From an uncultured bacterium (GTDB lineage: Bacteria > Cyanobacteriota > Vampirovibrionia > Gastranaerophilales > Gastranaerophilaceae), in NCBI GenBank assembly GCA_949291445.1, contig CASEVT010000005.1, positions 1 through 35,284 on the forward strand: a stretch of DNA of 35,284 nt, read 5' to 3'. The translations under genes and the position numbers were made by a program. Shown one piece after another: positions 2,262-2,396 of this stretch. Under the pieces are notes generated by a model. It had not been told where the DNA came from and searched no databases. It was given only the letters and a program-made list of their open reading frames with translations. Each line of letters begins with the position of its first letter. The first letter of the stretch is position 1.

Positions 2262-2364
2262 AAAAGCTCCTAAGTCATGCCGGACTAGCTGCCTTTATTT
2301 GTGAGGTGGAAGTTTAGCTCCGTACTAATCTGTTGTTCCTCGCAAATTAAGCACGACTTAAGAG
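2262..2364 (-). ncRNA. Candidate structured RNA (sRNA or leader) with nested long-range helices
   Basis: The 14-base arms 2351-2364 and 2267-2280 pair completely in minus-strand RNA, with two G-U wobbles. The same positions are C-A mismatches in plus-strand RNA, which favours the minus strand. A second helix nests inside (2338-2347 with 2297-2306, ten positions, one mismatch), closing a 31-base loop. A consensus promoter at 2396-2367 would start transcription near 2359-2362, at the base of the outer helix. A run of four T follows the 3' arm. A local hairpin (2288-2270, CTAGTC with GACTTAG) would compete with the outer helix. It may be a free small RNA or the leader of the gene starting at 2227. 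I do not recognise a known family. Confidence 0.5.
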
Positions 2365-2366
2365 TA

Positions 2367-2396
2367 ATTATAACTTTGCGAAAATTCTGCTGTCAA
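2367..2396 (-). promoter_or_regulatory. Consensus sigma-70 promoter for the structured RNA / downstream operon
   Basis: On the minus strand the -35 box is a perfect TTGACA (2396-2391) and the -10 box a perfect TATAAT (2372-2367), with an 18-base spacer. It starts right after the stop codon of the TM2 gene and points to the RNA at 2262-2364 and the two exported-protein genes beyond it. Confidence 0.75.

Follow-up and report, generated by a model that had tools for sequence, protein, structure and literature searches.

Stems at the 5′ end are known to protect mRNAs, as in the ompA-type stabilising stem-loops, where a stable stem lies at the 5′ end or one to two bases from it. The 6S RNA (RF00013) is likewise a long hairpin, with a closing stem and an interrupted upper stem, located behind a strong promoter. 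Prokaryotic MITEs are palindromic and lineage-specific, occupy AT-rich intergenic sites, and yield a stem-loop transcript (PMC10969869). Here, we describe a locus that shares traits with each of these systems and departs from each of them. It lies in the window, i.e., the whole 35,284-nucleotide stretch of DNA that was analysed, which is contig C5 of a 1.78-Mb assembly in 134 contigs (G000) from an uncultured Gastranaerophilales-type bacterium. The best explanation, to which we give a probability of roughly 70%, is that the 5′ leader of a unit encoding an M48-like protein and its partner was lengthened in one species by a palindromic, G+C-richer insertion of ~112-115 bp, placed downstream of the ancestral -10 box and ahead of the start codon.

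The unit lies on the minus strand and comprises an M48-like exported protein (1547-2227) and a second exported protein (682-1545) that is conserved next to the M48-like gene. Upstream of it, a sigma-70 promoter at 2396-2367 matches the consensus at 12 of 12 positions, with the -35 hexamer TTGACA at 2391-2396, a spacer of 18, and the -10 hexamer TATAAT at 2367-2372. As the preliminary description had stated, the promoter is followed on the minus strand by nested helices of 14 and 10 positions around a 31-base loop, an arrangement that we could confirm. The outer helix pairs 2364-2351 with 2280-2267 over 14 positions, its arms 70 nt apart, and its 5′ arm begins approximately at the expected +1. 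The inner helix pairs 2347-2338 with 2306-2297 over 10 positions, with one C-A mismatch, and closes the 31-nt loop (2307-2337), within which the minimum-energy structure forms a further small hairpin. The rest of the leader (2228-2266) is AT-rich and begins with CTTTTC, a weak U tract.

None of 400 dinucleotide shuffles attained the nested-helix statistic of 25 (the highest gave 24), and 3 of 1500 contained an outer helix with 14 pairs or more, from which we conclude that the structure exists and exceeds chance expectation. The minus-strand RNA from 2375 to 2225 has a fold energy of -35.1 kcal/mol (z -2.45), which 1 of 200 shuffles matched, compared to a z of -1.20 for the plus-strand fold (24 of 200 as good), and for the segment itself the energies are -33.7 (minus) versus -29.2 (plus). 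Total energy thus favors the minus strand, and two pairs of the outer helix are G-U in minus RNA (2361-2270 and 2354-2277). The strand argument put forward earlier from such wobble pairs is weaker than proposed, however, because the inner helix has its single odd position (2342-2302) the opposite way round: it would be a G-U wobble on the plus strand and is a C-A mismatch on the minus strand. Fold energy by itself is unremarkable (rank 18 among 3518 folded windows), since some coding stretches also fold; what is remarkable is rather the intergenic, AT-poor context of the fold, with 44.6% G+C in the lineage-specific segment (2264-2364) versus 21.9% in the remaining intergenic region.

Two further structural proposals fared less well. 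The local hairpin at 2288-2270, suggested to compete with the outer helix in a two-fold switch, amounts to -2.1 kcal/mol versus -17.9 kcal/mol for the outer helix alone, and is thus energetically negligible. The outward repeats said to pair beyond the helices are indeed present (CAAAGTT/AACTTTG and TATAAT/ATTATA), but inverted matches of 7 bases or longer occurred in ~590 of 3000 shuffles, which is within chance for such AT-rich flanks. On the plus strand, a -10-like TATAAT at 2252-2257 faces the hairpin from the opposite side and mirrors the minus-strand promoter, with no good -35.

Comparison with relatives clarifies to whom the promoter belongs. The genus sample consisted of three genomes, i.e., the source genome and two congeners (G001 and G002). 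For M48-like loci, the comparison drew on two genes of G001, on paralogs from G000 and G002, and on copies from six more family genomes. In both the window and G002, a TM2 gene is followed by the M48-like gene and its partner. In G002, the promoter (TTGACAGC...TATAATT) has the same TTGACA-N18-TATAAT layout and is identical to that of the window at 25 of 31 aligned bases, the hairpin is absent, and the -10 box stands 25 nt from the ATG. Ten other M48-like loci across genus and family carry TTGACA or TTGACT, a spacer of ~17-18, and TATAAT, followed by leaders of ~21-43 nt, versus 139 nt in the window copy only. Because promoter type and short leaders are shared in this way, the perfect promoter belongs to the M48-like gene by ancestry and not to the hairpin, which therefore sits in the 5′ leader of that gene. 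This bears out the earlier suggestion of a leader of the exported-protein pair. Homologous loci that keep neither pairing nor promoter had been named there as the refuting outcome, and the comparison gives one half of it: the promoter is kept and the pairing is absent. The empty site in the congener also sets the order of events, with the promoter old and the hairpin new. The leaders of the relatives mostly contain a GGAG-type ribosome site (GGGAG/GGAGG), unlike the window copy, where no good Shine-Dalgarno sequence precedes the ATG (2227-2225). In the interval separating the TM2 gene from the M48 promoter, G002 additionally carries an opposite-strand gene of 203 aa (L053:2167-2778, plus strand) whose product resembles a flavodoxin-fold NAD(P)H oxidoreductase; the window has just 11 bases there.

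The M48-like gene had been described as degenerate: the HExxH motif is lost in the window protein (SKELAL) and in its G002 ortholog (SKEIAL), while the paralogs retain HEIAH and are recognised by Pfam M48. Being common to the two orthologs, the loss is older than the hairpin. More broadly, the M48-like proteins (1547-2227, L051, and L054) form a family-wide set present in 110 of 117 genomes, with HEIAH kept in some and lost in others, and copies, which near-consensus promoters precede, often lie in tandem or adjoin the same partner protein. The named relatives of the window protein come from bins of the rumen and other gut sites, and two carry the label Candidatus Gastranaerophilales.

Searches for the element itself yielded no relative. 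Rfam gave no match at gathering or permissive thresholds, and we found no second copy in the source genome's 134 contigs and none in the two congeners; 14 loci surrounding M48-like genes, searched with filters off, lacked the element as well. A covariance model of the kind proposed in the preliminary description retrieved nothing convincing from 239 genomes of the family; the best other match (29.1 bits) has several outer-helix pairs broken and looks coding, and the weak matches L056-L059 are missing several of the pairs in the helices or the greater part of the outer helix. BLASTN against 383 genomes of the order returned no homolog and only AT-rich fragments of 19-30 bases, all at query positions 94-131 in the AT-rich 3′ end, which we took as chance. 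Distant blastn against phages and plasmids and a comparison of three exact 20-mers with viral contigs were likewise without a match. One arm recurs exactly at G000:C6:6949-6962 with its partner arm missing, and none of the arm-pattern matches elsewhere forms a hairpin of this kind. Identity with 6S RNA was rejected: RF00013 has no match in the window, the element is only ~100 nt, and 170-nt candidates scoring 40-43 bits, slightly under the Rfam cut-off of 46.4, are found elsewhere in all three genomes of the genus. The one in the source genome (170 nt, 41.8 bits; L084, G000:C45:2145-2314) is probably the 6S RNA of the genus, and the element is therefore not.

These data bear on two readings in which the hairpin would act as an RNA in its own right. 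A free small RNA of ~100 nt, starting at ~2362 and ending at the CUUUU after the outer helix, would account for the strong promoter directly upstream, the significant minus-strand fold, and the stem that runs at once into CTTTTC. Against this stand the origin of the promoter, which is the old one of the M48-like gene; the presence of 6S candidates elsewhere in the three genomes of the genus; and the lack of any homolog in the source genome, the 239 family genomes (covariance model), and the 383 order genomes (BLASTN). Only four U follow the stem (CUUUUCAG), and a terminator scan called none there, although its loop limit of 8 makes it blind to so long a loop. A free small RNA, as first proposed, is thus mostly unsupported and in our view unlikely. 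A literature search for small RNAs of this bacterial group returned nothing specific. The alternative of a cis-acting leader, i.e., an attenuator or riboswitch-like element controlling the exported pair, fits the position of the hairpin, as well as a 3′ hairpin (AAAGGC...GCTTTT) that can form when the 5′ arm is blocked and could serve in a terminator/antiterminator arrangement. Yet this alternative fold is ~12 kcal/mol worse, the local hairpin contributes little, Rfam does not know the element, and it is absent from every relative searched, even those with the same gene pair. A conserved cis-regulatory RNA or riboswitch would keep its structure through compensatory changes among relatives, but the family genomes (covariance model) and order genomes (BLASTN) yielded no homolog, and we regard such a leader as improbable.

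A mobile origin is suggested by the traits described for prokaryotic MITEs, and the element resembles these as well as Correia, ERIC, and QMITE2 in being a short palindromic insertion at an AT-rich intergenic site, with a predicted stem-loop transcript and the host promoter unchanged. It differs from them in being single copy, G+C-richer than its surroundings, and without clear ends or target duplication. The empty site exists in G002, and 14-pair arms that might represent terminal inverted repeats are present, but the insert lacks sharply defined ends, and a candidate target-site duplication (TTATA at 2373-2369 and 2256-2252) is no better than chance in the AT-rich flanks. With a copy number of one and a duplication within chance, the element is not classifiable as a MITE, and a palindrome belonging to a still active mobile family is unlikely. 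The insert may instead be a dead remnant of a small inverted-repeat (MITE-like) element, or may have arisen de novo. An integron attC site was also considered and rejected, as either strand shows the outer repeats in the order GTT...AAC, whereas attC sites have them the other way round.

Since promoter and gene occur in relatives without the hairpin, the locus looks like a recent single-species insertion into an mRNA leader rather than a conserved regulatory RNA. Loss of the hairpin in G001 and G002 instead of gain is disfavored only by parsimony with the paralogs and other genera, and in a metagenome-type assembly the hairpin may also reflect an assembly error. If inserted as proposed, the hairpin would be transcribed from the old promoter and head the M48-pair mRNA. 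The start expected from the position of TATAAT coincides with the first outer-helix pair or falls no more than a few bases from it, such that the mRNA would begin with a ~14-pair stem. Such a 5′-terminal hairpin would probably affect mRNA stability or translation. The likely effect is a shielding of the 5′ end from RNases, predicted by analogy to the ompA-type stems, from which the hairpin differs in not being conserved. Some premature termination at CUUUU may occur, partial at most given the weak U tract, and translation would be weaker, as the start codon lacks a nearby ribosome site of the usual GGAG type. It is also conceivable, if doubtful, that we are looking at a newborn regulatory RNA, where an inserted hairpin was captured by an old constitutive promoter in one species and acts on a catalytically degenerate M48-like pair, either as a controlling leader or released as a small RNA. 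Overall, the insertion reading implies that what looks convincingly like an RNA gene downstream of a consensus promoter can be the normal leader of a gene into which one lineage has gained an insertion, and, if transcribed, the locus would provide a clean case for the effect of a sudden 5′ hairpin on an mRNA.
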